Assembly (NCBI RefSeq): GCF_014518425.1
Contig: NZ_JACVCU010000002.1
Location: 744,001 to 808,000, forward strand
DNA length: 64,000 nt
DNA from: Terrabacter sp. MAHUQ-38
GTDB lineage: Bacteria; Actinomycetota; Actinomycetes; Actinomycetales; Dermatophilaceae
Reading direction: 5' to 3'
The translations under genes were made by a program, and so were the position numbers. The notes below the pieces were generated by a model. It made no database searches, had not been told where the DNA came from, and saw only the letters and a program-made list of their open reading frames with translations. This document shows positions 1 through 63,848 of this stretch, piece after piece (within the stretch, counting starts at the first letter, position 1; each line of letters starts with the position of its first letter).

Positions 1-1134
1 GGGGTCGGCGCCACCGACGGCGACGACGAGGTCCGAGGCCCCAAGAGAGGTGAGCGTGGCCTCGTTGCGGCGTGGGGCCACCGTGTCGTAGCTCAGCTCT
101 TCGTCGTCCTCCAGGCAGAAGCCGCAGTCGACGACGACGACCTGGACCAGGGACCGGCTCAGCTCGAGCACGCGCTCGAGAGCGGCGGCGCGGACCTCGG
201 GCCAGCGCTCGGCCTTGGGCAGGCCGGTGAGCACACGGAGCCCGGACACCACCTCCGGGGCGATCCGCGAGAGGGCCGGCAGGTCGAGCAGGCCCTGCTG
301 TGCGGCGCGACAGGCCGCCGCGATGCCGGGCGCCTCGTCGAGCAGCCCCAGGGCCTGCGCGACGCAGCCACCATAGGTGTCGGCGTCGACGAGCAGGACC
401 TCGGTTCCGCGGCTGGCGAGCTCGGCGGCGAGGGTCGTGGCCATCGTCGTGCGGCCGGGAGCACCGGTCGGCCCCCAGACCGCGATGACTGGCGCGCGGG
501 ACGGGCGGCGCATGTGGCGCGCGGTGGCACCGAGGTCGCCCCTGTCGTCGGCGTCGTGCGGGTCCTCGGCGTCGCGAGGGTCGGATCGGTCGATCTCGAG
601 GTCGCCGACCGTCGTCGCCCGGGCCTGCGCCCCTCCGGCCGGGCGCCAGGAGGCGGCCTCCTCGTGAGCGGAGGCTTCGGCAGCCACGGGCGGGACGGCA
701 TACGCGTCGGACTGCGGACCGGCGTGGGCCGCCGGCTCGGGAGCGTCGGGGCCGGCCAGCGCAGCCTCGAGCTCGTCGACGGGCGTGGCAGTGGTGTCAA
801 CGAGGCGTTCGGCCCAGCGATCGGCCCCCGCGTCGGCAGCCAGTGTGGCCGTGACAGTCAGCTGCCGCAGCCGGCGCTCGGCGCCCTCGTCGTCCGGCGG
901 GTGCAGGCCGATGACTCGGATCCCGTTGCCGCGCAGTCGGGTCACCACAGTGAGGTCGAGCCCGCGAAGGTCGGAGGAGACGACGGCCGTGTCGCCGACT
1001 CCGGCATCGGCGAGGGACAGGAGCTCGGCCACGTCGGCGCAGCGGCGGCTCACGGTCACCCCGGGCACTTCCTCGAGGACCGTCGCGACGGCTGACTCCC
1101 AGTGGTGGCTGAGAGCGGTCAGGACCTCGGTCAT
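1..1134 (-). CDS. CpaE/MinD-like AAA ATPase of a Tad/Flp pilus locus (3' end cut by window)
   Basis: 378 residues are visible with no stop before the window edge. The N-terminal ~130 residues look like the receiver-like regulatory half of CpaE proteins, followed by a disordered acidic linker (about 150-205). The MinD-like ATPase domain starts near 214: a deviant Walker A (GPTGAPGRTT, residues 221-230), LLVDAD near 250 and a VVVVDCG strand near 333. The lysine of the canonical MinD motif KGGxGKT is replaced, so the P-loop is atypical. ATG at 1132-1134 overlaps the stop of the SAF-domain gene by ATGA, so the two are translationally coupled. In Tad systems CpaE localises the secretion apparatus; the CpaF/TadA ATPase would be expected further left. 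Alternative: a general ParA-like protein. Confidence 0.8.
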   Translation of the reverse strand, partial: MTEVLTALSHHWESAVATVLEEVPGVTVSRRCADVAELLSLADAGVGDTAVVSSDLRGLDLTVVTRLRGNGIRVIGLHPPDDEGAERRLRQLTVTATLAADAGADRWAERLVDTTATPVDELEAALAGPDAPEPAAHAGPQSDAYAVPPVAAEASAHEEAASWRPAGGAQARATTVGDLEIDRSDPRDAEDPHDADDRGDLGATARHMRRPSRAPVIAVWGPTGAPGRTTMATTLAAELASRGTEVLLVDADTYGGCVAQALGLLDEAPGIAAACRAAQQGLLDLPALSRIAPEVVSGLRVLTGLPKAERWPEVRAAALERVLELSRSLVQVVVVDCGFCLEDDEELSYDTVAPRRNEATLTSLGASDLVVAVGGADP

Positions 1135-1793
1135 GCTCCGCCGCCGGTCACGGCTCCGACTGACGGGACGAGCGTCAGCTTGGCCTCACCGTCGACGGCC
1201 TCGACGAGGGGTTGCACCTTGTCGGCGGGCACGTAGATCTGCACGGACGTCAGCGACCCTGAACCGAAACCACCCGAGCTCGTCAGCACACCGGCGACCG
1301 CGGCGGCCTCGAGCACCTTGGTCGTCGTGGCCTTGGCCTGCTCGCCCGTTGTCGCGGCCTTCGGCGTGACGAAGACGTCGACCCGGCTGCCGCGCGCCAG
1401 GCCTGACGTGGCCATGGCGTCGGCCCGGACGGTGACCCGCTGGACGCCCACGGCGTCGGCGTCGCCCAGGGCGGACACGGGCACGAGCTCGCCTGCGCGC
1501 ACGTCGCGAACCAGGAAGGAGCCGACCGGGGCCGGCGCGTCGGCGCCGAGGTAGGTGCTCATGCCGTCGGCGAGCCGCACGTCGGCGCGCACGAACGACC
1601 CCGGCTCGATCTCGTCGCCGGCCACGAGGTTGGTCGCAGCCACCCAGACGGGCAGGCGGTCGTCGGCGCTCGACACCGCCTTGGCGCCCAGGGTCGCGGC
1701 CACGATGACGAGAAGCACCCCCACGACCAGACGGCTGTCCCGCCAGGACGGCCGTTGCAGGCGTTTCGCCGTCGGTCTGGCCAGCTCGGTCAT
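1131..1793 (-). CDS. cpaB: SAF-domain protein, CpaB/RcpC-like pilus assembly factor
   Basis: 220 residues. A cytoplasmic basic N-terminus (to about 20) precedes one hydrophobic anchor (about 22-41, LVVGVLLVIVAATLGAKAV) and then a SAF fold (about 45-110) with the usual AGDEIEPGSFV segment. The C-terminal half resembles the RcpC/CpaB periplasmic domain, ending in a glycine-rich tail. CpaB proteins act in the envelope during Flp pilus assembly. The start at 1793 is preferred over an in-frame upstream start because AGGGGG lies just upstream and homologues begin close to the anchor. The downstream CpaE-like gene overlaps by 4 nt. Confidence 0.82.
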   Translation of the reverse strand: MTELARPTAKRLQRPSWRDSRLVVGVLLVIVAATLGAKAVSSADDRLPVWVAATNLVAGDEIEPGSFVRADVRLADGMSTYLGADAPAPVGSFLVRDVRAGELVPVSALGDADAVGVQRVTVRADAMATSGLARGSRVDVFVTPKAATTGEQAKATTTKVLEAAAVAGVLTSSGGFGSGSLTSVQIYVPADKVQPLVEAVDGEAKLTLVPSVGAVTGGGA

Positions 1794-1866
1794 GGTGGAC
1801 CCCCTGTGGTGCGATGTCGGTCTGGCGCGCAGCCCCGCCCGGGAACCGGACGACGCCGCAAACATC

Positions 1867-1885
1867 TTGCATCAGTGGGGTGCAA
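1867..1885. promoter_or_regulatory. Spaced inverted repeat TTGCA-N9-TGCAA
   Basis: Five-base perfect arms separated by nine bases in the 287-bp gap between the divergent pilus operon and the BldC-type gene. The size fits a dimeric repressor operator, but no regulator can be assigned. The rest of the gap holds the promoter at 1944 and no convincing gene. Confidence 0.3.
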
Positions 1886-1943
1886 AGCGCCCGTTCAGGC
1901 GCACACCTGGGGATAACGGACGCCAGTCGCCACACCGGCTCCA

Positions 1944-1949
1944 TAGGAT
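1944..1949 (+). promoter_or_regulatory. Probable -10 box for the BldC-type gene
   Basis: TAGGAT matches the actinobacterial TANNNT -10. Transcription would start near 1956, leaving a leader of about 125 nt before the GTG at 2081. A GTG lies at the predicted start itself and opens a 19-codon frame ending at 2015. Confidence 0.4.
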
Positions 1950-2308: not shown

Positions 2309-2345
2309 CGCCGGGCGGCCGCCCAGGACCCGCCGACGCGTGAGG

Positions 2346-4032: not shown

Positions 4033-4562
4033 CGCAGCAGGCGACGACCCGCACGAGCCCGACCCCTCCCGGAGGGTTCACGGTCCGCCGCATCCCGCAG
4101 ACCGCCCCACGTATCATCAGCGCAGACGAGGCCTGGCACGGCGAACAGCCGTATGCCCAGGACGCCCTCGCCCTCGACTTCTTCGGCGCCCGCGACGACG
4201 AGGACTTCGGCCGCCAACCAACACGCAGCCGGCTGCTCCCCGAGCCAGAGCCGTTCGTTGCGCGCCTCTCGCAGGCCATCATCGAGGTCGTGTCAGGGCA
4301 GCGCCCGGCGCCGCAGCTCATCCGGCACACGGCACCGACGATCTACTCCGTCATCGCACGACAGGCCATGGTCGCCGGCCGCCGACGGACTCCCGGACCA
4401 CGGCGCACCGCGGTGGTCCGTCGGGTCCGCGTGTGCGAGCCGGCCGACGGCATCGTCGAGGCCTGCGCGGTCGTCGTCGCGCACGGCCGCGTCCGTGCGC
4501 TGGCACTGCGTCTGGAGGGTCTCGACGGCCGCTGGCTCGTCACCGCACTGACCATCGGCTGA
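4029..4562 (+). CDS. Rv3235-family protein
   Basis: 177 residues. The N-terminal ~70 are disordered and variable; residues about 75-177 form the conserved domain (LSQAIIEVVSGQRPAPQLIRHTAPTIY... ending in LEGLDGRWLVTALTIG). The family is conserved next to secA in actinobacteria but has no known biochemical function. The fold looks like an alpha+beta SnoaL/NTF2-type domain (inference). Coupled by a 4-nt overlap to the LysM gene and convergent with secA. Confidence 0.8.
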   Translation: MTQQATTRTSPTPPGGFTVRRIPQTAPRIISADEAWHGEQPYAQDALALDFFGARDDEDFGRQPTRSRLLPEPEPFVARLSQAIIEVVSGQRPAPQLIRHTAPTIYSVIARQAMVAGRRRTPGPRRTAVVRRVRVCEPADGIVEACAVVVAHGRVRALALRLEGLDGRWLVTALTIG

Positions 4563-7506: not shown

Positions 7507-7726
7507 CTGGTGATCTCACTCCCGACTGAACGTGTGGACTCGCCCGGTGGGCGGGCTCCATCGCCCGCGATGCGTCACGGGACCCGCCTAGGCTAGCCGC
7601 CTTCCGGACACAACGACCAACGCACCGGCAGGCGACGCGGTTCCGGCCCTGCCCCGGTCCACCGCACCGGAACACCACAGAGGCCGTATGCCGTGCGCCC
7701 GTGCCCTGCTGCCACTGTCCGGCAGC

Positions 7727-10698: not shown

Positions 10699-11454
10699 TC
10701 ACCCGCGCGTGCGCTGCGTCGCAGCAATCGTGGCGGCCACGACACCCCGCGCACCGGCCTCGCGCAGAGCGCGAGCGGCCTCTGCGAGCGTCGCCCCGGT
10801 CGTGACGACGTCGTCGACCAGCACGCACCGTCGGTCGCGGATCGCGTTGCGCCACAATGGCTTCACTGCGACCGCGTCGCTCAGGTTGCCTCGCCGCTCC
10901 CCGGTGCCGAGCCCGGACTGGTCTGCAACCCGTCGCACGTGACGCAGGGCCGGCGCGACCCGGAGGGCCGGCCCCGCCCGGTCTGCGAGCTGCTCGAGGG
11001 ATGCCTCACAGAGCGCGACGATCGGCGTGTCCCCGCGTGCCCGCACCGCCCGCCCGGAGGAGGGTGCAGGAACCACGAGCACGACCCCGTCGCCCCAGCC
11101 CGCGCCGGCCACCGCGCCGGACACCGAGGCTGTGAGCAGGGGCGCGAGCACGCCCACGAGGTCGCGGCGACCGACGTCCTTCCACGCGGAGACGACCGCC
11201 CTGAGCGGGTCGGCATAGACACCCCAGGCGTGAACGGACGGAAGACCCGCGGGCACCGGATGCGGCACGACCCAGGGCCCTCCGCCGGTGTTGCCGGTCG
11301 CCGGGCCGAAGGAGAGTGTCGCGAGCGCCCGCCTGCAGCGCGCGCACCACGAGGAGCCGGCGCGGAGGCAGCCACCGCACTCCCGGGGAAGGACGAGGTC
11401 GGTGAGGGCGCCCATCGCCGCCAGCACGGGCGAGCCGCGGGAGTGGTCACGCAT
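10699..11454 (-). CDS. comF: ComF-family phosphoribosyltransferase-like protein
   Basis: 251 residues. An N-terminal zinc-finger segment (LPRECGGCLRAGSSWCARC) precedes a PRTase fold with the PRPP loop CVLVDDVVTTGATL near the C-terminus. In naturally competent bacteria ComF is needed for DNA uptake or processing after transport; in actinobacteria it often sits with hpf and lpqB without proven competence. The start at 11454 is chosen for homologue-like length; the next Met at 11415 is an alternative, and upstream residues are low-complexity Arg. Between this gene and lpqB there are about 190 bases with only a short hairpin at 11548-11564. Confidence 0.85.
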   Translation of the reverse strand: MRDHSRGSPVLAAMGALTDLVLPRECGGCLRAGSSWCARCRRALATLSFGPATGNTGGGPWVVPHPVPAGLPSVHAWGVYADPLRAVVSAWKDVGRRDLVGVLAPLLTASVSGAVAGAGWGDGVVLVVPAPSSGRAVRARGDTPIVALCEASLEQLADRAGPALRVAPALRHVRRVADQSGLGTGERRGNLSDAVAVKPLWRNAIRDRRCVLVDDVVTTGATLAEAARALREAGARGVVAATIAATQRTRG

Positions 11455-18282: not shown

Positions 18283-18338
18283 CCTCCCGGACGGTCGCCC
18301 ACCGGGTCCGACCGGCATGACGACGCACTCCGGACGCA

Positions 18339-18374
18339 CGTATGCCGCCCGCCTTGCGAGGCGGACGGCATACG
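18339..18374. terminator. Bidirectional terminator built from an inverted pair of the CGGCATACG 9-mer
   Basis: CGTATGCCG and CGGCATACG form the outer 9 bp of a 15-bp stem with one mismatch and a 6-base loop (TTGCGA). It lies between the stops of two convergent genes. Confidence 0.75.
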
Positions 18375-18384
18375 TGAGCGGTCG

Positions 18385-18404
18385 GCTGGGCCGGAAGGCC
18401 CGGC
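18385..18404 (-). terminator. GGAA-loop hairpin after ahcY
   Basis: An 8-bp stem (GCTGGGCC/GGCCCGGC with one T-G wobble) closed by a GGAA loop, 11 bases past the ahcY stop. It adds to the larger hairpin at 18339. Confidence 0.55.
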
Positions 18405-21083: not shown

Positions 21084-22475
21084 TCACCCGGCTGCGTCGA
21101 GGGGCAGGCCGAGGAGCGCGTTCTCGACGACCTCGGCGAGCGCTGGGTGGATCCAGTACACCCCGCGCGCCAGGTCGCTCACGGACGTGCCGAAGGCCAG
21201 CGCCTGAACGACCGGCTGGATGAGCGACGTCGCCTGCGGCCCCATGAGGTGGGCGCCGAGCAGGAGCCCGGTCTCCGGGTCGGCGACGAGCTTGCACACG
21301 CTCGTCGTGTCCTCCATGGCCCAGCCGTATGCCGTGTCGCCGTACTCCTGGACGTACGCCACGTGGGCGCGGCCCTGCTCCACGCAGTCGTCCTCGGTCA
21401 GGCCGACCGTCGCGATCTGGGGGTGGCTGAAGATGCCGGAGGGGACGTGGTCGTGCGGCAGCGGGCGCAGGTCGTCGGGGTGCACGAGGTTGTGCGCGAT
21501 GGTCCTGGCCTCGGCGTTGGCGACGTGCTTGAGCTGGTAGTGCGAGCTGACGTCGCCGAGGGCCCAGACGCCGGGCGCGCTGGTGCGGCCGTACTCGTCG
21601 ACGTCGACCCGGCCGTCCTCGAGCACCTTGAGGCCTCCGGCGTCCGCGCCGAGACCGGCGCTGTTGGGCGCTCGACCCGTCGCGACGAGGAGCAGGTCGG
21701 CGTCGAGGTCGGAGCCGCTGTCGAGACGCAGCCGTACGCCGCGCCCGCCGCCTCCGGCCTCCACGGCGAGGACGGTGGTGCTGGTGCGCACGTCCCACTG
21801 CTCACGGGCCAGGTCGGTGAACCGCCGCGAGATCTCCGTGTCCAGGTGGCGCAGCAGCCGCGGGCCGCGAGCGACGATCGTGACGCGCACCCCGAACGAC
21901 GCGAAGACGTGCGCCATCTCGGCCGCGATGAAGCCGCCGCCGATGATCGCGAGCCGATCGGGCAGCTCGTCGATGCGCATGATCGTGTCGGACGTGTGGA
22001 AGCCGACTCCCGAGTCGGCCACGACGTCGGGGATCACGGGGTGGGCCCCCGCGGCGACGACGACCTGGTCGGCCGTGAGGGTCTCTGTGCGCCCCTCGCC
22101 GAGGTCGACGCACAGCGTGCGGTCGCCGGTGAAACGGGCGTGTCCGAGGTAGGCCGTCGTGTTGGGCCCCTCGACGCGGTAGCGGCGTCCGCCCTCGGAG
22201 ATCGGGTCGATGCGGCTGAAGATGCGGTCGCGGACGTCGGCCCACCGAACGCCCTCGAGCGTGGCGTCGACGCCGTACCGTCCGGCCTCGCGCACGTCGC
22301 GGACGACGTCCGCGGCGTAGACGAACATCTTCGTCGGGATGCAGCCGACGTTGAGGCAGGTGCCCCCGAAGGTGCCACCCTCGATGACGGCGACGCGCTT
22401 GTCGTCGAAGTCGGGGGTCACGAGCGAGTTGCCCGAACCGGTGCCGATGATGGCGAGGTCGTAGTGCTGCGTCAC
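21084..22475 (-). CDS. mtr: Mycothione reductase
   Basis: 463 residues. NADPH-dependent flavoprotein that reduces oxidised mycothiol (mycothione), the actinobacterial counterpart of glutathione reductase. FAD motif IIGTGSGNSL, redox-active disulphide GGTCLNVGCIPTK (Cys near 39 and 44), NADPH-binding GGGFIAAEMAHVF, WALGDVS and the C-terminal interface YWIHPALAEVVENALL with the catalytic His-Glu. GSGNSL instead of GGGPGG distinguishes it from lipoamide dehydrogenase. GTG start placed by the leaderless promoter. Fits the SigR/RsrA thiol-stress pair at 41.5 kb. Confidence 0.93.
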   Translation of the reverse strand: MTQHYDLAIIGTGSGNSLVTPDFDDKRVAVIEGGTFGGTCLNVGCIPTKMFVYAADVVRDVREAGRYGVDATLEGVRWADVRDRIFSRIDPISEGGRRYRVEGPNTTAYLGHARFTGDRTLCVDLGEGRTETLTADQVVVAAGAHPVIPDVVADSGVGFHTSDTIMRIDELPDRLAIIGGGFIAAEMAHVFASFGVRVTIVARGPRLLRHLDTEISRRFTDLAREQWDVRTSTTVLAVEAGGGGRGVRLRLDSGSDLDADLLLVATGRAPNSAGLGADAGGLKVLEDGRVDVDEYGRTSAPGVWALGDVSSHYQLKHVANAEARTIAHNLVHPDDLRPLPHDHVPSGIFSHPQIATVGLTEDDCVEQGRAHVAYVQEYGDTAYGWAMEDTTSVCKLVADPETGLLLGAHLMGPQATSLIQPVVQALAFGTSVSDLARGVYWIHPALAEVVENALLGLPLDAAG

Positions 22476-27897: not shown

Positions 27898-30800
27898 GCG
27901 CGCCTCCTCGAGCGTCGGTTTCCGAAGGGCACGGCCAGGAAGACGACGAGACCGAGGAGCACTGCCTGCCCGAGCCGCCACCAGGGCTGCGCCGCGGCTA
28001 GGTCGATGCGCAGCACGCCGGCGGTCGGGGGCACGGCATACGTCGGCTGGGCGGCGCCGGCGACGGGCTCGAGGCGCCGCCCGTCGAAGGTGACGAGCGC
28101 CTGCTGGGACCACTCGGAGGGTTCGGCGAGCACGAGGGAGCGGGCTCCGGTGCCGGCCGGCAGGGTCGTGTCGACCGCGGCGTGCGGACCGCTCGTGGGG
28201 ACGACCTGAAGCAGTCCGCCGTCGGCGTCGACGAGCCGGGCTCGCGACGGTGCGGTCGCGGGCGTCCCGCCGTCGGCCGCCGGGAGCGGCTGGACCTTCC
28301 AGAGGATGCCCCGCTCGCTCGTGCCGAGACGGCTCAGCCCCTCGGACGAGTCGAGGCGGCGGGCGAGCGCGGAGTCCGCGGTGGCGCGCACCTGCACGAA
28401 ACCGATGCCGAGCCGGGCGAGAGCCGTCGAGTCGAGGGAGTCGGCCCCCCGGCCGCCGACGATGTTGGCGACTGCGTCGACGAGGGGAGCGTCGTCGGCG
28501 TCCGGCGTGCGGTCGAGGTCGCGCAGCACCTCGCCCGGCTCCTGCCCGGCGAGCACGAAGTCCACGACGTCGTCGGACGGGCGCAGCAGGAGCAGCCGGT
28601 TGGCGAGGGCGCCACTGCCCTGCTCCGTTGCGACCGCGGGCAGGGTGGCCTGCCCCACGGACAGGGTGCGCCCGATCCCCTCGATGCCCCACAGCGCGGC
28701 CCCCGCGAGGGTCGGGACGACGGCGAGCACGGCCGCGGCCACAGCCGCCGCGAAGCCCCACCTGCGGCCGGGACGACCGAGCGACGCGAGCACCGGACGG
28801 CTGCCGGCGAGGAGGCCGACGAGGAGACCGGCGAGCCAGAGCTGCAGGCCGAGGCCGGCCCAGAGATGGGCGGCGGCCGACTGCCCGACGCCCGTCTCGG
28901 CGGAGCCGAGCAGCACCCGCTGCGAGACCACAGCCCCGGCGAGGCCGACCACGGCGACCAGCGCGCCGACGGCGAGGCCGACGGACTCGGCGCGGCTGCG
29001 GCTCCGGGAGGCGAGGCCGAGCACCCCGAGCAGGACGAGCGGCGCACCGAGCCACACAGCCCACGTCGTGCCACCCGGTTCGCCGAGGACGAGAGCGAGG
29101 ACGCCCCACGGACCACCGTCGTCGGAGGTCGAGAGCAGTCCCGGACCGGACAGGAGCAACCGCCAGTCCTCGACGAAGCGCGCCGCCCACGGCCCGAGCA
29201 GTGCTGCCGGTGCGACGAGCAACACCAGGGCCCGGGCGCGGCGCAGACCGGGGCCCAGGACGAGCAGGAGGAGGGCCGCGACCGCCGCCAGAGCGAGGAG
29301 CGGCGGCGCGAAGGCGCCGACCAGGGCGGTGGCGAGGGCGGTCGCGAACGTCGCCGTGAACGTGCCGTCGCGGCGGGCCGCGAGGCAGTAGCCGGCGAGG
29401 ACGAACGGCAGCAGGACGTGGACGACGGCGACGGTGACGCGGCCCTGTGACACGCCCGCAGCGGCCACACCGGCCGTGCCCCACGCCAGTGCCCCGACCG
29501 CCCGCGCGAGGCGGGACGAGGTGACGACGCGCCCGGCGAGATAGGTGGACCACGCGCCGAGCGCCGGGGCCAGGAACAGCAGCCAGGCGATGGTCACGCC
29601 GGCGCTCGAGCGACTCTCGGCCACGCCGGGAACCCGCTCCGCGAGCCAGGTCAGGGCCGACAGCACCGCGAGGTGCGGTCCGGACTCCGAGCCCGAACCC
29701 AGGCCGGCGCCGTGCCAGGCGTCGCGGAACGCGTGCCAGAGTCCCGCCGAACCCGTCGTGACGGGGCGCAGCTCGCCGCCGGCCACACCGGTGTTGGTCG
29801 GGGACAGCGCGCCGGAGCGGATGGGGCTGCGCCAGGCAGCCAGCGACGCGGCGAGAACACCTGCCACGGCGAGGAATCCCGGGTGCGTGACGATACGTCG
29901 CGGCAACGATGCCGGGAGGTTGTCGAGCGACTCGGACTCGTCGGCGACGGGCCCGGTCTCGGTCGTCAGGGCTGCCTCACGGCGCGCGCGCGTGCGCTCC
30001 GGGGTGATGGCGTCCTGGATGTGGTCGATGGTCGTGCGCGCAGCCACCGTGGGGGCGACGAACAGCGTGCCGAGGTGGTCACGGCGCAGCCGCTTCGTGG
30101 CCCGTCCCCGCCACCGTGCGCCGAAGGTGGCGAAGGGGTGCAGCAGGGCGGTGATGTCCGTCAGCTCGCGCCAGGCCTGCCGTGGACGCTTGGCCACGAG
30201 CAGCGTCAGCGACGCGACGACGGCCGAGAGCGCCATCCAGATCGCCAGGAACGGCGCCGCGAGCGGCGAGCACCTGGCGAGCGTCACCTGTCGGGCCGCG
30301 CGACGTCCGCGGCGCTCGAGCTCGCGGGGCCGTGCACCACCGGGGCGCTCTCCGTCGAGGCCCGCGGCGGCGTCGCGGACAACGGCCCCGGGCACGACGA
30401 TGACGCGGTGGCCGGCGAGCTGGGCCCGCCAGCCGAAGTCGAGATCGGCCCCGTGCTCGACGAACACGGGGTCGAACCCGCCGATGTCGTCGTACACGGA
30501 GCGCCGGACGAGCATGCCGCTCGTGCTCACGGCGAGCACGTCGGCACGGTTGTCGTACTGGCCCTGGTCGGCCTCGCCGCGGGCCGGTGACGCGAGGCGC
30601 CGACCGGTGCGGGTGATCTGGATGCCCATCTCGACGAGTCGGCGGGGGTCCGCCCAGTCGACGATCTTCGGGCCGGCCACGCCCACGGACTTCGAGCGCA
30701 TGCCGGCGTGCAGCAGCTGCGCCAGGGCGTTGCCGCGCGGCACCGAGTCGTCGTGCAGCACCCAGACCCAGCTCGACGACGGGTCGTCCGGGACGGGCAG

Positions 30801-36220: not shown

Positions 36221-36876
36221 CCAGTCCGGGGTTGTTCACGGCGCACGTGCCCGGGACGTCGCTGCTGCACCGGATGCCGTTGTGGCCCAAGCTCGCCGGA
36301 GTCATCGCAGTGGGCGCGATGGCCTGGCTCGTGGGGTCGCCGTGGCCGTTCGCGGCCGTGACCCTCGTCCTCTGGGCACTCGCCGTGGCCGCAGCGTTGC
36401 CGCTGCGCCGGCTCCTCCGGTCGATCCGGACGCTGCTCCCCGTCCTCGTCGTGCTGCTCGCCTTCCAGTGGTGGTCGCACGACCTCGCGTATGCCGTCCA
36501 CGTCGTCCTCGGCATCGCCAACGCGTTCGTCGCGGCCGGCATCCTCACCGCGACGACTCCCGTCACCGACCTGCTCGACGCCGTCGTGCGGGCGGCGCGT
36601 CCGCTGCGCCGCGTCGTCGACCCCGAGGTCGTCGCGCTGACGCTCGGGATCGTCGTGCGCTCGGTGCCGTGGGTCGCCGGATCCTTCGCCGCGGTGCGCC
36701 AGTCGGCCCGTGCCCGAGGGCTCGACCGCGACCCACGCGCGGTCGTCGTCCCCACGGTCGTGCACGTCGTCGCCTATGCGCGGGCAACCGGCGAGGCGCT
36801 CGCGGCCCGGGGCCTGACCGACCCACCGGACGACGAGCCGGACCCCGACATCGGCAGCGGCGGGCGCCGCTCCTGA
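36217..36876 (+). CDS. bioN: Biotin ECF transporter transmembrane coupling protein BioN (EcfT)
   Basis: 219 residues with four to five hydrophobic segments starting SLLHRMPLWPKLAGVIAVGAMAWLV. The coupling-helix motif AxG of EcfT proteins is seen as SARARGLDRDP near the C-terminus. It couples the ATPase to BioY. The last codons include a GC hairpin that may help termination. Start overlaps bioM by 4 nt. Confidence 0.9.
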   Translation: MTSPGLFTAHVPGTSLLHRMPLWPKLAGVIAVGAMAWLVGSPWPFAAVTLVLWALAVAAALPLRRLLRSIRTLLPVLVVLLAFQWWSHDLAYAVHVVLGIANAFVAAGILTATTPVTDLLDAVVRAARPLRRVVDPEVVALTLGIVVRSVPWVAGSFAAVRQSARARGLDRDPRAVVVPTVVHVVAYARATGEALAARGLTDPPDDEPDPDIGSGGRRS

Positions 36877-41794: not shown

Positions 41795-42522
41795 GCCCGG
41801 GTTCCTTCCGTGCCCGCGCCGCCGGTCGTGCCCGCTGCGACGAAACCGCGCTCGGCGGCATACTCCGAGAGGAGCTCTCGCAGCTGGCGCCGCCCGCGAT
41901 GCAGGCGGCTCATCACGGTGCCGATCGGCGTCTCCATGATCTCGGCGATCTCCTTGTAGGAGTAGCCCTCGACATCGGCGAAGTACACCGCGAGGCGGAA
42001 CTCCTCGGGAATGGCCTGGAGCGCCCGCTTGACGTCGCTGTCGGGCAGGTGGTCGAGCGCCTCCGCCTCCGCGGAGCGCAGCCCCACCGACGTGTGCGAC
42101 TCGGCGCGCGCCAGCTGGTAGTCCTCGATCTCGGCCGAGTCGGACTCGAGGGGCTGGCGCTGCTTCTTGCGGTAGCTGTTGATGTAGGTGTTGGTGAGGA
42201 TGCGGTACATCCACGCCTTGAGGTTCGTGCCGGGGCGGTACTGGTGGAAGGCGGCGTACGCCTTCGCGAACGTCTCCTGGACGAGGTCCTCGGCGTCGCT
42301 GGGGTTGCGAGTCGTGCGCAGGGCGGCGCTGTAGAGCTGGTCGAGCAGCGGCATCGCCTCGCGCTCGAAGCGCGACCGGCGTTCGGCGTCGCTCTCGCCG
42401 GCGACGTCGACCGTCGCGTCGGCGACCTCCTGCGAGGTGCGCACTGGCGTGCCGGGGTCGTCGGTGCTCGGGTCGGCGAGCCGGAGGGCAGCGCTCGGGT
42501 CGGTCTTCTTGTCCTTTGCCAT
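41791..42522 (-). CDS. sigR: ECF sigma factor SigR (SigH)
   Basis: 243 residues. A ~55-residue N-terminal extension, then sigma-70 region 2 ([30 protein letters not shown] split by loop, [18 protein letters not shown]) and region 4 ([44 protein letters not shown]). It directs transcription of thioredoxin and mycothiol genes under thiol oxidation. The ATG at 42522 has GGGAGGCG upstream. A second initiator further inside, closer to SDAERRSRF, could give a shorter form as described in Streptomyces. Confidence 0.95.
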
Positions 42523-44123: not shown

Positions 44124-44129
44124 AGCGTA
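44124..44129 (-). promoter_or_regulatory. -10 box, leaderless start of the SRAP gene
   Basis: TACGCT, seven bases, then ATG. The -10 overlaps a CGGCATACG copy (GGCA-TACG). Confidence 0.55.
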
Positions 44130-44270
44130 TGCCGTGTCGCCGACGCCGAGGGCGGCTCACAGGTGGGGCACGGGCTCCCGTACCGCGGGTATGTCGATAC
44201 CGTAGGTGTCCACTGGTCCACGATGGCCACGGTCCGCTCCGGTGGACCGCCGGCCGGAGGAGGAAGTCCC

Positions 44271-46212: not shown

Positions 46213-47252
46213 GCTGGCGGGACCTCGACGAGGGCGACGTGCGCGTCCGCCCCACCCGCAAGGGCTCGAGGCCCCGCACCAAGGAACGGCCGGCACATTC
46301 TGACGCCGTCGTGGCGATGGTCATCGGTGTCGACCGCGGCCGTTACACCTGCCTCGTGCCCAAAGGCGCGCTCGGCAAGAAGGAGCCCGAGCGGGTGGTC
46401 ACGGCGATGAAGGCCCGCGACATCGGCCGCACTCGGGTCGTCGTCGGTGACGACGTCGCCCTCGTCGGTGACCTCGCCGGCGGGCCCGACGCCCTGGCCC
46501 GCATCGTGCGCATCGAGGAGCGGCGCTCGGTGCTGCGGCGCACCGCCGACGACACCGACCCCTTCGAGCGGATCATCGTGGCGAACGCCGACCAGCTCGT
46601 CATCGTCACGGCCCTCGCCGACCCCGAGCCTCGACCCCGGATGGTCGACCGCTGCCTCGTCGCGGCATACGACGCCGACCTCGAGCCGCTCCTGGCCCTC
46701 ACGAAGGCCGACCTCGTCGACCCGGCGCCCTTCCTCGCCAGCTACGCCCCCCTCGAGGTCGCCCACGTGGTCACCTCGCGCACCGACCGCGACTTCTCCG
46801 GCCTCGAGGACCTCCGCGCCAAGCTCTCCGGCAAGGTGTCCGTTCTCGTCGGGCACTCGGGCGTGGGCAAGAGCACCCTCGTCAACGGCCTCGTGCCGGG
46901 CGCGCTGCGGGCCACCGGGTCGGTCAACGACACGACGGGGCGGGGTCGGCACACGTCGACGAATGCCGTGGCGCTGCGCCTGCACGGAGCCCACGGGGCC
47001 GACGACGGCTGGGTCATCGACACGCCGGGCATCCGGTCCTTCGGTCTCGCGCACATCGACGTCGACCGCATCATCGACCATTTCCCCGACCTCGCCGCGG
47101 GCACCGAGAACTGCCCGCGCGGTTGCACGCATGACGAGGAGGAGTGTGCTCTCGACGCGTGGGTGACCGAGGGGCACGCCGGACCGGCGGGGCCCTCGCG
47201 TCTGGCCTCGCTTCGACGACTGCTGGCGAGCCGCGCCGGCGAGGACCACTGA
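46209..47252 (+). CDS. rsgA: Ribosome small-subunit maturation GTPase RsgA
   Basis: 347 residues. Circularly permuted GTPase: G4 (LTKAD) precedes G1 ([10 protein letters not shown]) and G3 (DTPGIRSF). N-terminal OB fold and a C-terminal zinc knuckle ([16 protein letters not shown]). It checks late 30S assembly. Overlaps aroA by 4 nt. A CGGCATACG copy at 46664 encodes Ala-Ala-Tyr-Asp. The 139-bp gap after it carries another copy at 47295 and the hisN promoter. Confidence 0.95.
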
Positions 47253-47379
47253 CCCGGCCAGGCCCCACTCGGCCGACGGGCGCTCTGCCGCAACGGCATA
47301 CGGTCTCCGGCAGGTCACGGTCGCGTGACGTCGCCGGTGGGAGCGCGGGTGCTCCCACCGCTCCGCGGGGCGATGCCGC

Positions 47380-50178: not shown

Positions 50179-51509
50179 GCGGCCTCCTCCGAGTCCTTGT
50201 CGGCGTCCGTGTCGGTGTCGGACTGGTCGGCGTCCTTGCTCGTGTCGGCGAGATAGCGCACGACCGCGCGCGAGCCCGGGTCGAGCCACGTCTGCGCGGC
50301 AGCGCGCGCCTGCTCTGCGGTCACGGCGCGGATCCGGTCGACGAACGTGTTGACGTATGCCGGGTCGCCCGTGAGCAGGGCGTGGTGGCTGATGTGGTCG
50401 GCGCGCTCCTCGATGCTCGCGAGGGCGCTCAGCCACGACCGCTCCGTGTCGGCGATGACCGACTCGAGCTCGGCGGCATCTGGCCCCTCCGCGATGAAGC
50501 GGGCGATCTCCTCGCACACCGCGCCCTCGACCTGCTCCACGTCGGCGCCCGCAGACACGTCCACCGTGATCGTGCCGAGCCCGACCCCGTCCACGAGGCC
50601 CATCGTCCAGCCACCCACGGCGACGGCCGTCTCGTCGGTGCGCACGAGACGGCGCACGAGACGCGAGCTCGCCAGACCACCGAGGACGTCGACGGCGACC
50701 TGGCACGCAAGGTAGTCGGGTGTCGTGTCGACGGGGAGGCGGAACGAGACGTAGATGCGGTCGTTGGGCACGTCCCCGATGCGGTCGAGGCGGACCGGCT
50801 CGCTGATGGGGGGCAGCTGGGGCAGCCGCTCGCGCGGGTTCAGCTGGATCGGGGGCAGGTGGCCGAAGTAGGTCTCGGCCGCGGCGAAGCCCGCCTCCGG
50901 GGTCACGTCCCCGACGAGGGTGAGGACGGTGTTGTTGGGGCCGTAGTGGGCCCGGAAGAAGGCGTGGACGTCCTCGAGCGTCGCGGCGTCGAGGTCCTCC
51001 ATCGAGCCGATCGTCGGGTGGTGGTAGGGATGGTCCTCGGGGAAGACGGTCGCGTAGATGTCGATGAGCGCCGAGCCGTAGGGCACGTTGTCGTAGCGCT
51101 GGCGCTTCTCCTCCTTGACGACGTCGCGCTGGTTGTCGAGGTTTTCCTGGGTGACGGCGTCGAGCAGGTGCGCATGCCGGTCGGCCTCGAGCCACAGGGC
51201 CAGCTCGAGCGCACCGGTCGGCACGGTCTCGAAGTAGTTCGTGCGGTCGAACCAGGTCGTCGCGTTGAGCCGGGCGCCCTCGTCCATGAGCGCCGAGAAG
51301 TGCTCCCCCGAGGCCACGTTGCGGCTCCCCTGGAACATCAGGTGCTCGAAGAGGTGCGCGAAGCCGGTGCGGCCGGGTGTCTCGTGCCGGGAGCCGACAC
51401 CGACCCAGAGGTTCACCGCGACGTTGGGCACCGTGTGGTCCTCGCTGACGATGACACGCAGGCCGTTGTCGAGCGTCCGCTCGACGAGGGGGTACGAGAT
51501 CGCTGTCAC
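50175..51509 (-). CDS. M16 zinc peptidase, catalytic subunit
   Basis: 444 residues. Zinc motif GFAHLFEHLMFQGS (HxxEH near residues 52-56), followed by the distal Glu helix (TQENLDNQRDVVKEEKRQRYDNVPYG). The second half-domain lacks this motif. The C-terminus is an Asp-rich tail (TSKDADQSDTDTDADKDSEEA). Together with the downstream subunit it should form a clam-shell peptidase for short peptides. GTG start placed by a leaderless promoter. Confidence 0.9.
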   Translation of the reverse strand: MTAISYPLVERTLDNGLRVIVSEDHTVPNVAVNLWVGVGSRHETPGRTGFAHLFEHLMFQGSRNVASGEHFSALMDEGARLNATTWFDRTNYFETVPTGALELALWLEADRHAHLLDAVTQENLDNQRDVVKEEKRQRYDNVPYGSALIDIYATVFPEDHPYHHPTIGSMEDLDAATLEDVHAFFRAHYGPNNTVLTLVGDVTPEAGFAAAETYFGHLPPIQLNPRERLPQLPPISEPVRLDRIGDVPNDRIYVSFRLPVDTTPDYLACQVAVDVLGGLASSRLVRRLVRTDETAVAVGGWTMGLVDGVGLGTITVDVSAGADVEQVEGAVCEEIARFIAEGPDAAELESVIADTERSWLSALASIEERADHISHHALLTGDPAYVNTFVDRIRAVTAEQARAAAQTWLDPGSRAVVRYLADTSKDADQSDTDTDADKDSEEAA

Positions 51510-53350: not shown

Positions 53351-53379
53351 GTGCGCCGACTTCGCCTGAGGCGCGGTCA
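53346..53379. terminator. Hairpin between aminotransferase and oxidoreductase
   Basis: TGACCG..CGCC pairs with GGCGCGGTCA with a 2-base bulge and 12-base loop; the right arm includes the stop codon of the convergent gene. Confidence 0.5.
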
Positions 53380-54276
53380 GGGCACGAGGACGAGCTTGCC
53401 GCCCGCGCGCCCGCTGGCGCTGAGCTCCTGGGCCGCCCCGACCTCGTCGAGGCGGAACACGCGCCCGATCGTGGTCGTCAGCTCACCCGCAGCTCGCCGC
53501 TCCACGAGGTCCGCTAGCGCCGCCGCCGACCTCTCGGCCTGTGAGCTGAAGGTGATGCCCTTGTCGAAGGCGGCCGGGTCGGCGAGGGTCACCAGGCGCT
53601 CGCTGCCGCCGAGCAGCTCGACGGAGGCGTCGAGGACGCCCCTGCCGGTCGTGTCGAGCACTGCGTCGACCCCGCCGGGGGCGAGCGCGCGCACCCGGTC
53701 GAGCCACCCGTCGCCGTAGACCGTCGGGGTAGCCCCGAGACTCGCCACACGCTCCTGGTTGGCCGGGGAGGCCGTCCCGATGACGCCCGCTCCGGCAGCG
53801 ACGGCGAGCTGGGTGGCCAGCTCGCCGACGGCTCCGCTCGCGCCGTGCACGAGCAGCGTCTCCCCCGGTCTCACGTCGAGCTGCCGCAGGACCCGCTGGG
53901 CGGCCTCGCCTGCCACCGGCAGCGAGACGGCCACCGAGGGTTCGAGACCTTCGGGGACGACGGCATACGTGCTGAGCACGGCGAGCTCTGCGTAGGCACC
54001 GCCTTCGGTGAAGCCGACGACACGGTCCCCCTCGGACACGTCGGCGACGCCGTCGCCGAGCCTGTCGACGATCCCGGCCGCCTCGATGCCCAGCAGCAGC
54101 GGCATGGGCGTGTCGGGCGAGGCGAATGCGCCGCTGCGCAGCTTGCCGTCGAACGGGTTGACCCCGACGGCCTCGACGCGGACCCGCACCTGGCCCGGTC
54201 CGGGCCGCGGGTCGGGCAGCTGCACCGCATGCAGCTCCTCGGGTCCGCCGAAGCGGTCGATGACGATGGCCTTCAC
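53377..54276 (-). CDS. NADP-dependent quinone-oxidoreductase-like MDR protein
   Basis: 299 residues. Zinc-free medium-chain reductase: VKAIVIDRFGGPEELHAVQLPDP, VGVNPFDGKLRSG, LLGIEAAGIV, and Rossmann LLVHGASGAVGELATQLAVAAGAGVIGTAS. The C-terminus GKLVLVP is typical of quinone-oxidoreductase-like members. The GTG at 54276 is chosen for GGAGGACCC immediately upstream; the frame stays open upstream without homology. A CGGCATACG copy at 53962 encodes Thr-Tyr-Ala. Confidence 0.88.
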   Translation of the reverse strand: MKAIVIDRFGGPEELHAVQLPDPRPGPGQVRVRVEAVGVNPFDGKLRSGAFASPDTPMPLLLGIEAAGIVDRLGDGVADVSEGDRVVGFTEGGAYAELAVLSTYAVVPEGLEPSVAVSLPVAGEAAQRVLRQLDVRPGETLLVHGASGAVGELATQLAVAAGAGVIGTASPANQERVASLGATPTVYGDGWLDRVRALAPGGVDAVLDTTGRGVLDASVELLGGSERLVTLADPAAFDKGITFSSQAERSAAALADLVERRAAGELTTTIGRVFRLDEVGAAQELSASGRAGGKLVLVP

Positions 54277-54350
54277 GGGTCCTCCAGCAGCCGGGGCGCC
54301 CGGGTCGGGCGACGTCGTCAGGTCAACCACGGCCACCGCGGCGGTATGCC

Positions 54351-55220
54351 CTACGGCGCGAGGGCCGCGTAGCCGGTGTAGTCGTGCACGGCTGTCCCCG
54401 CATAGCTCGGGCTGGCCGCGGCAGCGGCGTCCACCCGTGCAAGCTCGGCATGCATCTGGGTCACGGTGTACCCGTAGAAGGTCTGCTTGACGTCGGTGGG
54501 GTCGGGGCCGAGGTAGTTCGTCTCCTGGCCGATGCGAACCGGTTTGCCGAGCGCCGCCCCGGAAGCCAGCTCGGCCTGCGAGATCGCGATCGTCCCGTCG
54601 ACGCCGGCCGCCGTGTTGCGGTAGGCCATGATCGTGACCGCCGAGACACGCCGCATCGTCTCCCTGTCGAGCGTCGACTTCTTGCCCGCCTTGACCTCGT
54701 CGAACCAGAACGGGATGTCGGCCTCGACCGGCATGCCGCCGCCCGCCGCGACGAGCCGGTCGAGCATCATCAGGTACTTCGTGACGGTCGTCGACTGGCT
54801 GCTCGTCCACGCCGGAGTGGTCCACGGCTCGACGTCGACGTGAAGACCCGTGAACAGCCCGGTGGCGAGCGTCGGCCTGACCCAGTGGTCCACGGCCCAC
54901 GTCGGGTCGTCCACCCACCCGGGGTCGCCACCGAGCGCGTCGACGCGCAGGCCCGCCGCCCGGGCCCGGGTCACGACATCGCGCAGCCTCGTCAGCTGTG
55001 AGCTCGACGTGACGTCGGGCGGCACCCCGACGAACAGCTGCTGCACACCGCGGGCCTGTGCGAGCTGCACGACCGAGTCGGCGTCCTGCCATACCCACAC
55101 CCACATGGCTCTGGACGGCGTCGTGGCCGCGGCCGAGGGCAGTGCGGAGAGCACGACGGAGCCGACCATGGCCACGAGCATCGCAGCCGCGGCCGCCAGG
55201 CCGTCACGTCTGGGCTTCAT
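54351..55220 (-). CDS. Secreted TIM-barrel-like protein, unassigned
   Basis: 289 residues. Signal peptide (GLAAAAAMLVAMVGSVVLSALPSAAA) then a domain suggesting a (beta/alpha)8 barrel: AMWVWVW, QLFVGV, LRVDALGGDPGWVDD, LHVDVEPWTTPAW, PVEADIPFWFDEV and VTIMAYRN, which resembles glycoside-hydrolase-like barrels with acidic residues at strand ends (DVEPW). No known family assigned with confidence. The ATG at 55220 has GGAGG upstream. A motif copy (54344) abuts its stop codon. Confidence 0.7.
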   Translation of the reverse strand: MKPRRDGLAAAAAMLVAMVGSVVLSALPSAAATTPSRAMWVWVWQDADSVVQLAQARGVQQLFVGVPPDVTSSSQLTRLRDVVTRARAAGLRVDALGGDPGWVDDPTWAVDHWVRPTLATGLFTGLHVDVEPWTTPAWTSSQSTTVTKYLMMLDRLVAAGGGMPVEADIPFWFDEVKAGKKSTLDRETMRRVSAVTIMAYRNTAAGVDGTIAISQAELASGAALGKPVRIGQETNYLGPDPTDVKQTFYGYTVTQMHAELARVDAAAAASPSYAGTAVHDYTGYAALAP

Positions 55221-58645: not shown

Positions 58646-58831
58646 GTGGAGTGCCTTGGGTGCTGGAACGGGCAGGTGGTCGGGCGGACCCGGGGGCGGT
58701 CTGCTCCGGCCGCCTGCGGCAACCATAACCCGGCCCCGCACGGACCCAACCGGCCGACACCGCACCGTGACCCGCGCGAGACCCAGCGGGGTGAGCAGGG
58801 CCGGCCGGGCGGCATACGGCAGCATGGGGGC

Positions 58832-59362
58832 GTGAAGCCGCAGCCCGTCATCGACCCTCTCGCCGTCGCCGCCCTCGACACGGAGCGCCACGTCGCGGCC
58901 GCCGGGTGGGACCAGCCGGCCCGGCTCTTCGCCCTCGTGCGGACGGCCGACCTGCTCGAGCGCGAGCCGCAGCTGCGCGACCAGATGGGTCCGGCGGATC
59001 TGGCCGACGGCGCGCTCACCGCGATCGAGCAGGAAGGCCTGCCCGCGACGAGCTCGGTCGAGACACTGCTCGGCCGGCTCGCCTGGCCCGCCGAGGTCGA
59101 CGGCTGCGCGTTCGCGATCGAGCGGATGGTCGTGCCACCGGAGGCGGAGCGGGAGCTGCCCGCACGCGGTGACGACGCCGTCGACCAGCTCGCGGCGCAT
59201 CCCGACCGCAAGGACGTCCGCCTCCTCGTCGCGGTCCTGCGCGACGGGGCATCGATCTGCCTGCTGCGTCAGCGCGACCACGACTCCGACGACGCCGTGG
59301 CGACCGGCAAGGACATCGCGCCAGGACTCGTCGCGGCGCTCAGGGCGACGTTCGAGGACTAG
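58832..59362 (+). CDS. PPA1309 family protein
   Basis: 176 residues. Matches the small actinobacterial PPA1309 family: GWDQPARLFALVRTADLLEREPQL, ALTAIEQEGLP, LGRLAWPAEVDGCAFAIERMVVPPEAE and RLLVAVLRDGASICLLRQRDHDS. Function unknown; usually next to the PDZ protease gene, as here. GTG start at 58832; a CGGCATACG copy lies 14 bases upstream. Its TAG and the convergent gene's TAG share the tetramer CTAG. Confidence 0.85.
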   Translation: MKPQPVIDPLAVAALDTERHVAAAGWDQPARLFALVRTADLLEREPQLRDQMGPADLADGALTAIEQEGLPATSSVETLLGRLAWPAEVDGCAFAIERMVVPPEAERELPARGDDAVDQLAAHPDRKDVRLLVAVLRDGASICLLRQRDHDSDDAVATGKDIAPGLVAALRATFED

Positions 59363-60984: not shown

Positions 60985-60990
60985 ATCGTA
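60985..60990 (-). promoter_or_regulatory. -10 box, leaderless start of moaE
   Basis: TACGAT, seven bases, then GTG; the -10 overlaps a CGGCATACG copy (GGCA-TACG), as at the SRAP gene. Confidence 0.55.
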
Positions 60991-61120
60991 TGCCGCCGCG
61001 CGGGCCCCCGCGTCCCGTGTGCATCCCGTCCCGCCGGGGAACCAACGCGGCCGATCCGTGGTTGTCTTGGTGTACGGCCGAGTGGCCGTCACTGACCAGT
61101 TCGAGTGGGGATGAGCAGGC

Positions 61121-62812: not shown

Positions 62813-63384
62813 CCGCGCGCTCCGCGTCCGCTGCCTGGCAGCGGCTCCACACCGATGCCGTCGAACGGCTCGAGTCCTGGCGCGCCCCCGACGAGGGGCA
62901 GGAACGCTTACGTGTCGAGTTCCTCCACCACCTGCGCTCCCATCCCGACGCCCTGAGCAAGGCCGGTCCCCCGGCCCACCTCACCGGAAGCGTCATCGTG
63001 CTGGACGAGACCGGCCGGTCGGCGCTGCTGACCCTGCACAAGCGGGCACGGCAGTGGTTCCAGTTCGGCGGCCACTACGAGCAGGGCGACGAGTCGGTGT
63101 GGCACGCGGCGACCCGGGAGGCCCGCGAGGAGTCCGGCATCCCGGCCGTCACGGCGCTGCCCGACATCGTCCAGCTCGACCGGCACGTCCTCGTCGGCGA
63201 CTTCGGCACCTGCCGCGAGCACCTCGACATCCGCTTCGCCGCGGTCACGTCGGGCGCGACGACCACGGCAGTGAGCACCGAGTCGATCGACGTGCGGTGG
63301 TGGCCGGTGGACGCGCTGCCGCAGGGCACGCGCGACGAGCTCCGCACGCTCGTGGACGCCGCGCTGCCACACCTGCGGGCCTGA
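62809..63384 (+). CDS. Nudix hydrolase
   Basis: 191 residues. Nudix box GGHYEQGDESVWHAATREAREESGI split by one extra residue before the first Glu (REAREESGI conserved). An N-terminal helical extension (HTDAVERLESW) precedes the fold. It hydrolyses a nucleoside diphosphate linked to an unknown moiety. Coupled to the upstream gene by a 4-nt overlap. Confidence 0.88.
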   Translation: MTARSASAAWQRLHTDAVERLESWRAPDEGQERLRVEFLHHLRSHPDALSKAGPPAHLTGSVIVLDETGRSALLTLHKRARQWFQFGGHYEQGDESVWHAATREAREESGIPAVTALPDIVQLDRHVLVGDFGTCREHLDIRFAAVTSGATTTAVSTESIDVRWWPVDALPQGTRDELRTLVDAALPHLRA

Positions 63385-63482
63385 GCCTTCGCCACGGCCC
63401 GAGAGGGCGCACCAGGCGCCTGCCCGCGCACGTCGGCGAGCTCCCCACCCGACAGAAACGGACATTCCATCGCGCTCGCGGG

Positions 63483-63498
63483 TGTGATCCACGTCACT
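63483..63498 (+). promoter_or_regulatory. CRP/GlxR-type operator TGTGA-N6-TCACT
   Basis: One mismatch to the CRP consensus TGTGA-N6-TCACA, in the 470-bp region between the Nudix gene and the M48 peptidase. Target gene uncertain. Confidence 0.5.
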
Positions 63499-63753
63499 TT
63501 ACGCACGTGGTCGTCGTCGCAGGACGGGTCGAGCAGGGGGCCGCCACGCTCGACTCGGCTGCTCGCACCGGCGGCTGCGGCGGCCGCCGATGCACCCACC
63601 GCCCTTCCCGCTCCCGGCCGGGCCGAACGGGCTCGCGCCGTGACCCGTCCGGTGCGCGAGGCTGCGGCCGGCGCCCTGCGAAGGAACGCTGTCGCGTGGT
63701 CCCGCGCCGTGGGTGTCATCGTGCGGCGGGTGAGGGGTGGCGGGCTCACATGA
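63484..63753 (+). CDS. Doubtful small protein, Ala/Arg-rich
   Basis: An 89-codon frame whose nominal GTG lies inside the CRP-like site, so the true start, if any, is later (for example GTG 63642). About 79% of third positions are G or C, lower than in clear genes here. The C-terminal part (AAAGALRRNAVAWSRAVGVIVRRVRGGGLT) could be an amphipathic helix. Its stop overlaps the next ATG by ATGA, the only argument for a real pair. The bases from 63385 to 63480 hold nothing I recognise. Confidence 0.25.
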   Translation: MIHVTLRTWSSSQDGSSRGPPRSTRLLAPAAAAAADAPTALPAPGRAERARAVTRPVREAAAGALRRNAVAWSRAVGVIVRRVRGGGLT

Positions 63754-63848
63754 GCAGTCGCGTGCGGAGCCGACGGGCTCCACGGCATACGGGCTCGGGC
63801 GACGGCGGACAGTGCGGACCGTGTCGTCGTTGCGCGGGAGCGCGGTGA
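63750..63848 (+). CDS. Doubtful 32-residue Cys-containing peptide
   Basis: MSSRVRSRRAP start and QCGPCRRCAGAR end: a CxxCxxC cluster in a basic peptide. Third positions are only about 66% G or C, and a CGGCATACG copy lies inside, so it may be chance. Coupled by ATGA to the preceding frame. Confidence 0.25.
   Translation: MSSRVRSRRAPRHTGSGDGGQCGPCRRCAGAR

Follow-up and report, generated by a model that had tools for sequence, protein, structure and literature searches.

Sequence-tagged DNA uptake is, to our knowledge, known from two Gram-negative families. In Neisseria, ComP is the receptor for the DNA uptake sequence (DUS). Eight DUS dialects sharing a CTG core are described for the Neisseriaceae in PMC3630211, and PMC12616744 gives the minor pilin ComN/PpdA as the proposed receptor for the uptake signal sequence (USS) of the Pasteurellaceae. 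In the actinobacterium Micrococcus luteus, transformation needs Flp/tad genes, as stated in PMC4322843. Here we examine a 9-base word, CGGCATACG, that recurs throughout a 64-kb stretch of the Terrabacter sp. MAHUQ-38 genome (G000:C11:744001-808000, “the window”), and that an earlier note on this stretch had put forward as a candidate DNA uptake sequence. The word is probably the self-recognition word of a DNA-uptake system, in which changes of the receptor would have produced lineage dialects.

The window contains 16 exact copies of CGGCATACG, nine forward and seven reverse, and 20 copies of the core GGCATAC, the same numbers as the earlier note had obtained by eye. Dinucleotide shuffles of the window (n=100) gave a mean of 0.34 (maximum 2) for the 9-mer and of 1.76 (maximum 6) for the core, confirming that both lie far above chance. 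By an order-3 Markov model the word ranks top among the 9-mers of the window (16 vs 0.64 expected), with over-representation also evident for CGGCGTACG (17 vs 2.0) and GGCGTACGCC (8 vs 0.38). The strong excess extends to the whole 5.16-Mb genome (5,156,829 bases, 18 contigs), where 1,233 copies were counted, 626 forward and 607 reverse, consistent with the nearly equal orientations claimed for the window. The word read backwards, GCATACGGC, occurs 289 times, a count inflated by the motif itself: most of its 28 copies in a 464-kb sample of the genome (the window plus 20 stretches of 20 kb) lie inside the 11-mer CGGCATACGGC (n=24).

In this sample, CGGCATACG was found 103 times against 5.1 expected. 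The core CGGCATAC occurs 170 times, with an A over-represented before it and then mostly G, less often C. The last base of the word is looser, as seen with CGGCATACC (47 vs 3.4) and CGGCATACA (15 vs 1.5), and other single-base neighbours are likewise enriched, namely CGGCGTACG (44 vs 15.4), CGGCATCCG (44 vs 18.4) and a small number of less common neighbours. GGCGTAC is also in excess (158 vs 72.8), with only 15 of the 158 copies intergenic, and this excess may be partly coding. A longer repeat or a repetitive extragenic palindromic (REP) element was excluded, as the flanks show no long homology, only codon periodicity.

The word acts, or is selected, as DNA. To call genes we used a basic purpose-made script rather than a standard program, and all intergenic counts carry that uncertainty. 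Coding DNA of the sample was enriched 20-fold for the word (70 vs 3.5) and its intergenic DNA 21-fold (32 vs 1.49); in G009, a relative in another genus used for comparison, the corresponding values were 96 vs 3.95 and 53 vs 1.35. Intergenic DNA makes up 13% of the bases of the sample and holds 32 of the 103 copies. Within the window, where nearly half of the core copies had been said to be intergenic, 8 of 20 cores and 7 of 16 9-mers are so placed in the 10.4% of DNA that is intergenic; this count includes the copy at 63783, near the window edge and without a further called gene, and the core copy at 54343, which touches a gene end. Moreover, genic copies impose rare codons, as had been noticed: 6 of the 24 TAT codons in the called genes of the window fall within CGTATGCC. 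Where the context allows the word, tyrosine is encoded by TAT in 36 of 58 cases in the sample and 47 of 49 in G009, compared with 146/2,368 and 188/2,351 elsewhere. Similarly, alanine is encoded by GCA in 36/76 and 29/71 cases, compared with 1,169/17,712 and 342/15,986 elsewhere. A codon or protein motif as the cause was excluded, because intergenic DNA is equally enriched and rare codons are used.

The distribution of the word was determined in 186 genomes of the family, which we take to be Dermatophilaceae in the GTDB sense. Genomes with at least 50 copies/Mb were classed as rich, those with 15 copies/Mb or fewer as poor and the rest as intermediate. The distribution is near-bimodal, close to all-or-none, with 91 genomes rich, 69 poor and 26 intermediate; 24 of the 53 genera are all rich, 19 all poor and 10 mixed or intermediate. 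The highest count was seen in G100 (3,218 copies in 4.2 Mb), and over the 91 rich genomes the strands remain balanced (39,070/38,834). At 50/Mb or more, the word is confined to this family among the relatives and distant actinobacteria compared. Outside the family, the 362 genomes of the order (396 less 34 of the own family) have at most 64 copies, or about 28/Mb, and none of the 195 of 198 phylum genomes that belong to other families (two already in the order set) reaches 50/Mb. The phylum maximum outside the family was 132 copies in 9.7 Mb, with 115 copies of a control word in the same genome. The outgroups Aeromicrobium, Streptomyces, Actinacidiphila, Actinomadura and Nonomuraea have 6-134 copies, with 1-140 of the control word.

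Equal word counts indicate that the family includes Intrasporangium (G043, G045), Flexivirga (G030, G031), Lapillicoccus (G085), Ornithinimicrobium (G132), Phycicoccus (G144), Luteipulveratus (G088), Mobilicoccus (G097) and Janibacter melonis (G093). Among the 80 named loci matched in a search with TadA of the competence-type Tad cluster, the nearest were Terrabacter sp. Ter38 (83% identity) and Terracoccus sp. 273MFTsu3.1 (81%). Their strand counts of CGGCATACG, 654/649 and 708/726 respectively, are those of G176 and G171, genomes of the window's own genus, and this equality suggests a Terrabacter-like genus for the window.

Between relatives, one word has been replaced by another. A k-mer census of 80 kb of the word-poor genome G052 gave CGAAGGGGG as the top 9-mer (34 vs 1.96). 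Genome-wide, CGAAGGGGG is present in 797-1,939 copies with balanced strands in every one of the 19 genomes that make up two genera, g27 (16 genomes) and g36 (3 genomes), which contain 1-13 copies of CGGCATACG. The other 167 family genomes have 11-80 copies of CGAAGGGGG, and among the 362 genomes from outside the family its maximum is 101. By equal counts (L151), g36 holds Janibacter melonis, with nine copies of CGAAGGGGG in its 21-kb locus; Candidatus Janibacter merdipullorum (L158) has seven in 13 kb, and g27 is likely the rest of Janibacter.

Two further replacements were found inside single genera. G084 has 4 copies of CGGCATACG, compared with 1,361 and 527 in its congeners G085 and G086. 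In 280 kb of G084, CGCCGTACG occurs 97 times against 16.9 expected (18 vs 1.54 in intergenic DNA), and genome-wide ACGCCGTACG reaches 698 copies, compared with 9 and 65 in the two congeners. ACGCCGTACG is also moderately raised in G013 (357), in genus g35 (G088-G090, 146-212) and in G002, G003, G015, G012, G144 and G014 (105-166), all of which are poor or middling in CGGCATACG. Likewise, G008 has 10 copies of CGGCATACG, compared with 456-1,176 in its four congeners, and 205 copies of ACGGTCTACG, which is found 11-20 times in the congeners and at most 24 times in the other 16 genomes tested. The pattern CG---TACG is common to CGGCATACG, ACGCCGTACG and ACGGTCTACG; CGAAGGGGG is wholly unrelated. 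A variant, C(G/C)GCATACC, was seen in G124 (g42). The replacement of words in sister lineages matches the uptake reading and is a further argument for it that the earlier note had not foreseen.

Other repeated sequences were encountered in these genomes. In 40 kb each, CACCGCATCG occurs 13 times against 0.9 expected in G083 (L121-L122) and ACCCTCTTCC 8 times against 0.12 in G011 (L127-L128), and these are possibly further dialects or repeats. In 40 kb of G090 (L113-L114), a REP-like family of repeats containing GGTCTCGATA(CG) and CTACTCGACC reaches 11-13 copies, and G084 has an intergenic repeat, ACTGCTGCG/CAGCAGTCC, with 14 vs 0.46 and 12 vs 0.47 (L037-L040, L249-L258). The sample of the MAHUQ-38 genome contains a mostly intergenic, REP-like palindromic repeat, with AGTGACCACTCG at 10 vs 0.06 and ACCACTCGA at 20 vs 1.25 in intergenic DNA.

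Genes for competence are present in the same genome, with comEA-comEC and complete Tad clusters lying outside the window. The comEA-comEC locus (L049) scores above the cut-offs of the Pfam models HHH_3, SLBB and Competence and below those of the NCBIfam comEA and ComEC models. The Tad cluster of the Rv3654c-3660c type (L069) comprises Ssd-, TadA-, TadB- and TadC-like genes, a DUF4244 pilin, TadE_Rv3655c and an Rv3654c-type TadE-like protein, with TadB assigned by position only and Ssd below the cut-off; a classical Flp cluster is found at L070. The Micrococcus luteus cluster is presumably of the same Rv3654c-3660c type. Matches to comEA and comEC were obtained in 19 of 19 com loci examined. 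Across the family, ComEC was detected in 180 of 186 genomes and TadE_Rv3655c in 179, of which 170 were above the curated cut-off. This predicted competence machinery fits the uptake reading. A TadA-like ATPase gene at L071 7229-8302 (G000:C13) has no called TadB, TadC or pilin neighbours; its counterpart in G009 is a whole second Tad cluster (L073 7145-11974), and the second cluster looks decayed in the MAHUQ-38 genome.

If the words act in uptake, as we infer, the word would be bound by a sequence-specific receptor, either a pilin or some other competence protein, that sits on the Tad/Flp competence pilus or on partners of this pilus, and DNA carrying the word would be taken up preferentially. 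Alleles bearing the word would be taken up and recombined time after time, a drive resembling biased gene conversion that would multiply the copies and, together with mutation towards the word, maintain hundreds to thousands of them. A shift in receptor specificity would let the old word decay and a new one accumulate, giving rise to dialects, with CGGCATACG in about half of the family genomes, CGAAGGGGG in two genera, and CGCCGTACG and CGGTCTACG in single species. On this reading, word-poor lineages would either rely on a different word or show no preference in the DNA that they take up. The proposal of the earlier note is supported in part: the excess, intergenic bias, codon override, strand balance, family restriction and competence genes speak for it, and the failure of the word to track the competence genes does not. 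On balance we lean towards a wider picture, in which one actinobacterial family would have its own uptake-sequence system, one that uses a Tad-type pilus, operates in Gram-positive cells and is independent of the Neisseriaceae and Pasteurellaceae systems. It would comprise at least four dialects, two of them the product of switches inside single genera, and would allow the co-evolution of receptor and word to be followed. Among the open-access matches listed, outside which most subscription papers and all preprints fall, there was no report of uptake sequences in Actinobacteria or in this family, nor any uptake-sequence report for Janibacter transformation or the word itself.

Several findings weigh against a function in uptake. 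Density is intermediate in 26 of the 186 genomes, and genus g42 (31 genomes, including Ornithinimicrobium) forms a gradient of 4.8-180 per Mb rather than two classes. CGAAGGGGG is 3-5x its reversed control in some genomes of two other families (e.g. G315, G485, G551). The word of G008 is the weakest; its shorter form GGTCTACG occurs 108 times against 29.9 expected, and its 12 intergenic copies are not above the 13.4% intergenic share of bases. In 40-128 kb sampled from each, no clear substitute word was seen in the word-poor genomes G184, G096 and G038, and only weak or repeat-like candidates in G154, G022, G083, G011, G014 and G090. Close pairs of copies (<80 bases) are at about chance level, with 2 inverted and 2 direct pairs vs 1.8 for both kinds together in the MAHUQ-38 sample, and show no clear excess in G009 (6 inverted and 0 direct vs 4.7).

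The competence genes themselves do not tell word-rich from word-poor genomes, because comEC and TadE are nearly universal in the family; their presence or absence as the cause of word-poor genomes was accordingly rejected, and this too weighs against the uptake reading. Furthermore, candidate pilins (Flp, TadE and TadF-like) from 32 loci did not sort by word in a small, unsystematic comparison in which some TadF frames were wrong and Flp was missing in six loci. An early end of the TadE profile match (85-95 of 101), seen in 14 of the 17 g27/g36 matches listed, which leave out G065 and G092, failed as a mark of these genera: G052, G053 and G055 reach 98-100, and early ends also occur in word-rich genomes (G165 at 86, G079 at 94).

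A Chi-like signal, at which degradation by a nuclease-helicase of the RecBCD/AddAB/AdnAB type would stop and recombination start, is an unlikely alternative to the uptake word. The copy number of CGGCATACG is of the order of that of Chi in E. coli, and the words vary by lineage, as Chi words do between distant taxa. The orientation of the copies speaks against it. In contiguous 200-kb stretches the strand counts were 14/11 and 36/26 in MAHUQ-38 and 32/40 and 37/44 in G009; neither these four stretches, mostly of one replichore each, nor the genome totals show a strand bias, although a weak bias is possible, as GC skew gave no clear chromosome arms in G009. On the same strand balance, a polar motif of the Chi or KOPS (FtsK-orienting polar sequence) type was rejected as the principal explanation. 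The excess in intergenic DNA is a further argument against a Chi-like signal, and near-complete loss and replacement within single genera would need a switch of enzyme recognition at the level of species.

That the word is a site for a protein of drifting specificity that modifies DNA or organises the chromosome, such as a methyltransferase, a nucleoid protein or the factor behind a HIP1-like word, we hold to be equally improbable. We take the cyanobacterial palindrome GGCGATCGCC to be HIP1. This palindrome is also frequent and contains a methyltransferase site, as reported in PMC1939737, which is the precedent for such a site. The words described here are non-palindromic, ungapped 9-mers. Restriction sites are usually avoided and not enriched. 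Moreover, the codon override indicates strong selection or drive, which a binding site without uptake drive would not readily give. The uptake reading accounts for more of the observations than do the Chi-like, methylation-related and HIP1-like ones.

It is very unlikely that the word spread through selection on expression, as a terminator of transcription or a regulatory element. The density of copies in MAHUQ-38 is highest in convergent intergenic DNA (1.25/kb, n=10, compared with 0.39 in divergent, n=7, and 0.38 in tandem, n=13), which would suit a terminator and an uptake sequence alike. An inverted pair at 18338..18375, between genes ending at 18282(+) and 18415(-), forms a predicted terminator-like hairpin, with the copy at 18339..18347 (-) as its left arm and that at 18366..18374 (+) as its right arm; the 66-base stretch 18325-18390 has a minimum free energy of -39.4 kcal/mol (z -4.06). 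The claim that this pair forms a terminator thus holds as far as a strong hairpin between convergent genes is concerned, but inverted pairs show no clear overall excess. In contrast to the expectation for terminators, 70 of the 103 sample copies lie inside genes (31 on the coding and 39 on the opposite strand), few copies are paired, and in G009 tandem intergenic DNA is almost as rich (1.26/kb) as convergent (1.49/kb, with 0.86 in divergent).

An artefact, either adapter contamination (Illumina P7 contains ACGGCATACGA, and published P7 primers include the word) or codon or mutational bias, is rejected as having next to no likelihood, since the P7 sequence and its inner 15 or 17 bases are absent from the window and the loci screened, in which CGGCATACG occurs 440 times, the flanks are random, coding and intergenic copies are equally enriched, and codon use is overridden, not followed. 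With ACGGCATACGA in the P7 adapter, trimming of adapters or filtering for contamination could remove authentic bases from word-bearing genomes.

The copies in the window are given here as 9-base intervals, whereas the earlier note gave the positions of the 7-base core. Besides the hairpin pair, exact copies of CGGCATACG lie within genes at 696..704 (+, the first in the window, in gene 1-1134(-)), 21326..21334 (-, in gene 21084-22475(-), codons ACG GCA TAC GGC), 28034..28042 (+, in gene 27894-31148(-), codons ACG TAT GCC GTG), 33623..33631 (+, in gene 32701-33759(+)), 36488..36496 (-, in gene 36217-36876(+)), 46663..46671 (+, in gene 46209-47252(+)), 50354..50362 (-, in gene 50175-51509(-)), 53961..53969 (+, in gene 53377-54276(-)) and 58810..58818 (+, in gene 55607-59281(-)). 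Intergenic copies are found at 7685..7693 (-), 44126..44134 (-), 47294..47302 (+) and 60987..60995 (-), and the last copy, 63783..63791 (+), near the window edge, was counted with them. A copy of the core GGCATAC in which the 9-mer is inexact is at 4150..4158 (-, in gene 4029-4562(+)), and further core copies are at 32063..32071 (-, in gene 31709-32704(+)), 41856..41864 (+, in gene 41791-42522(-)) and 54343..54351 (-), the last touching the end of gene 54351-55220(-) and counted as intergenic. Elsewhere in the genome, three overlapping tandem copies with a period of 7 (CGGCATACGGCATACGGCATACG) are present at G000:C1:114144-114166 (L019 14144-14166).

Gaps between copies are near random (coefficient of variation 0.72-1.02). 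In MAHUQ-38 the number of copies per 20 kb increases with G+C (rho 0.81, n=20 stretches); two stretches without any copy are at 68.4 and 68.8% G+C. The longest two gaps between copies, of 30.5 and 20.1 kb out of 200 kb, have a G+C content of 69.5 and 68.3%. In G009, copies per 20 kb and G+C showed no significant correlation. Between related loci, 17 of 30 copies were retained in 7 non-independent locus pairs, where control 9-mers were retained at 12-61%, so that positional conservation is suggestive only.

The claim that the window itself has comF and Tad/Flp pilus genes stood in so far as ComF-like, CpaE/Ssd-like and CpaB-like genes are there, but all score below their TIGR cut-offs and the complete clusters are elsewhere. 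The CpaE/Ssd-like ATPase gene (1..1134, -), cut by the window edge, reaches 59.8 bits with TIGR03815 (cut-off 154.5), with AAA/ParA-type folds just below the cut-off. The adjoining gene (1131..1724, -) encodes a SAF-domain protein that is CpaB-like at most (TIGR03177, 21.5 bits, cut-off 71), and no pilus cluster was seen among the called genes in the 20 kb left of the window. A predicted ComF-like phosphoribosyltransferase (10699..11454, -) passes the Pfam Pribosyltran threshold (36.3 bits, cut-off 26.3) and falls short of TIGR00201 comF (47.8, cut-off 233.6); by sequence it is possibly competence-related.

If the uptake reading is true, this family would be a further, unrelated Gram-positive case with a different pilus, implying that self-recognition in DNA uptake evolves repeatedly. 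The species-level switches in G008 and G084 would then be natural pairs for finding the receptor. Natural transformability would be predicted in many genera of the family, and the word would guide the tagging of transforming DNA.

Compared with known systems, the words resemble Chi in being short, non-palindromic and frequent, and differ from it in strand bias, which Chi has and which was not seen here. They resemble the cyanobacterial HIP1-type palindrome as very abundant short words, and differ in being non-palindromic and in forming mutually exclusive sets, whereas HIP1 is a palindrome with a methyltransferase site (PMC1939737). With the USS of the Pasteurellaceae they share a length of 9 bases and dialects between lineages, as described in PMC1626085 and PMC12616744; the host group, the pilus type and the word are different. 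Likeness to the Neisseriaceae DUS, as presented in PMC3630211, lies in a short, high-copy word, conserved in species, with lineage-distributed variants around a shared core, which here is CG---TACG in three of the four words. The hosts here, unlike those of the DUS, are Gram-positive actinobacteria with a Tad-type pilus, and one genus pair has an unrelated word, CGAAGGGGG. The traits of uptake sequences found in this family are a high-copy, non-palindromic word, balanced orientation, intergenic excess, lineage words that can be replaced, and competence genes, the last also in word-poor relatives.

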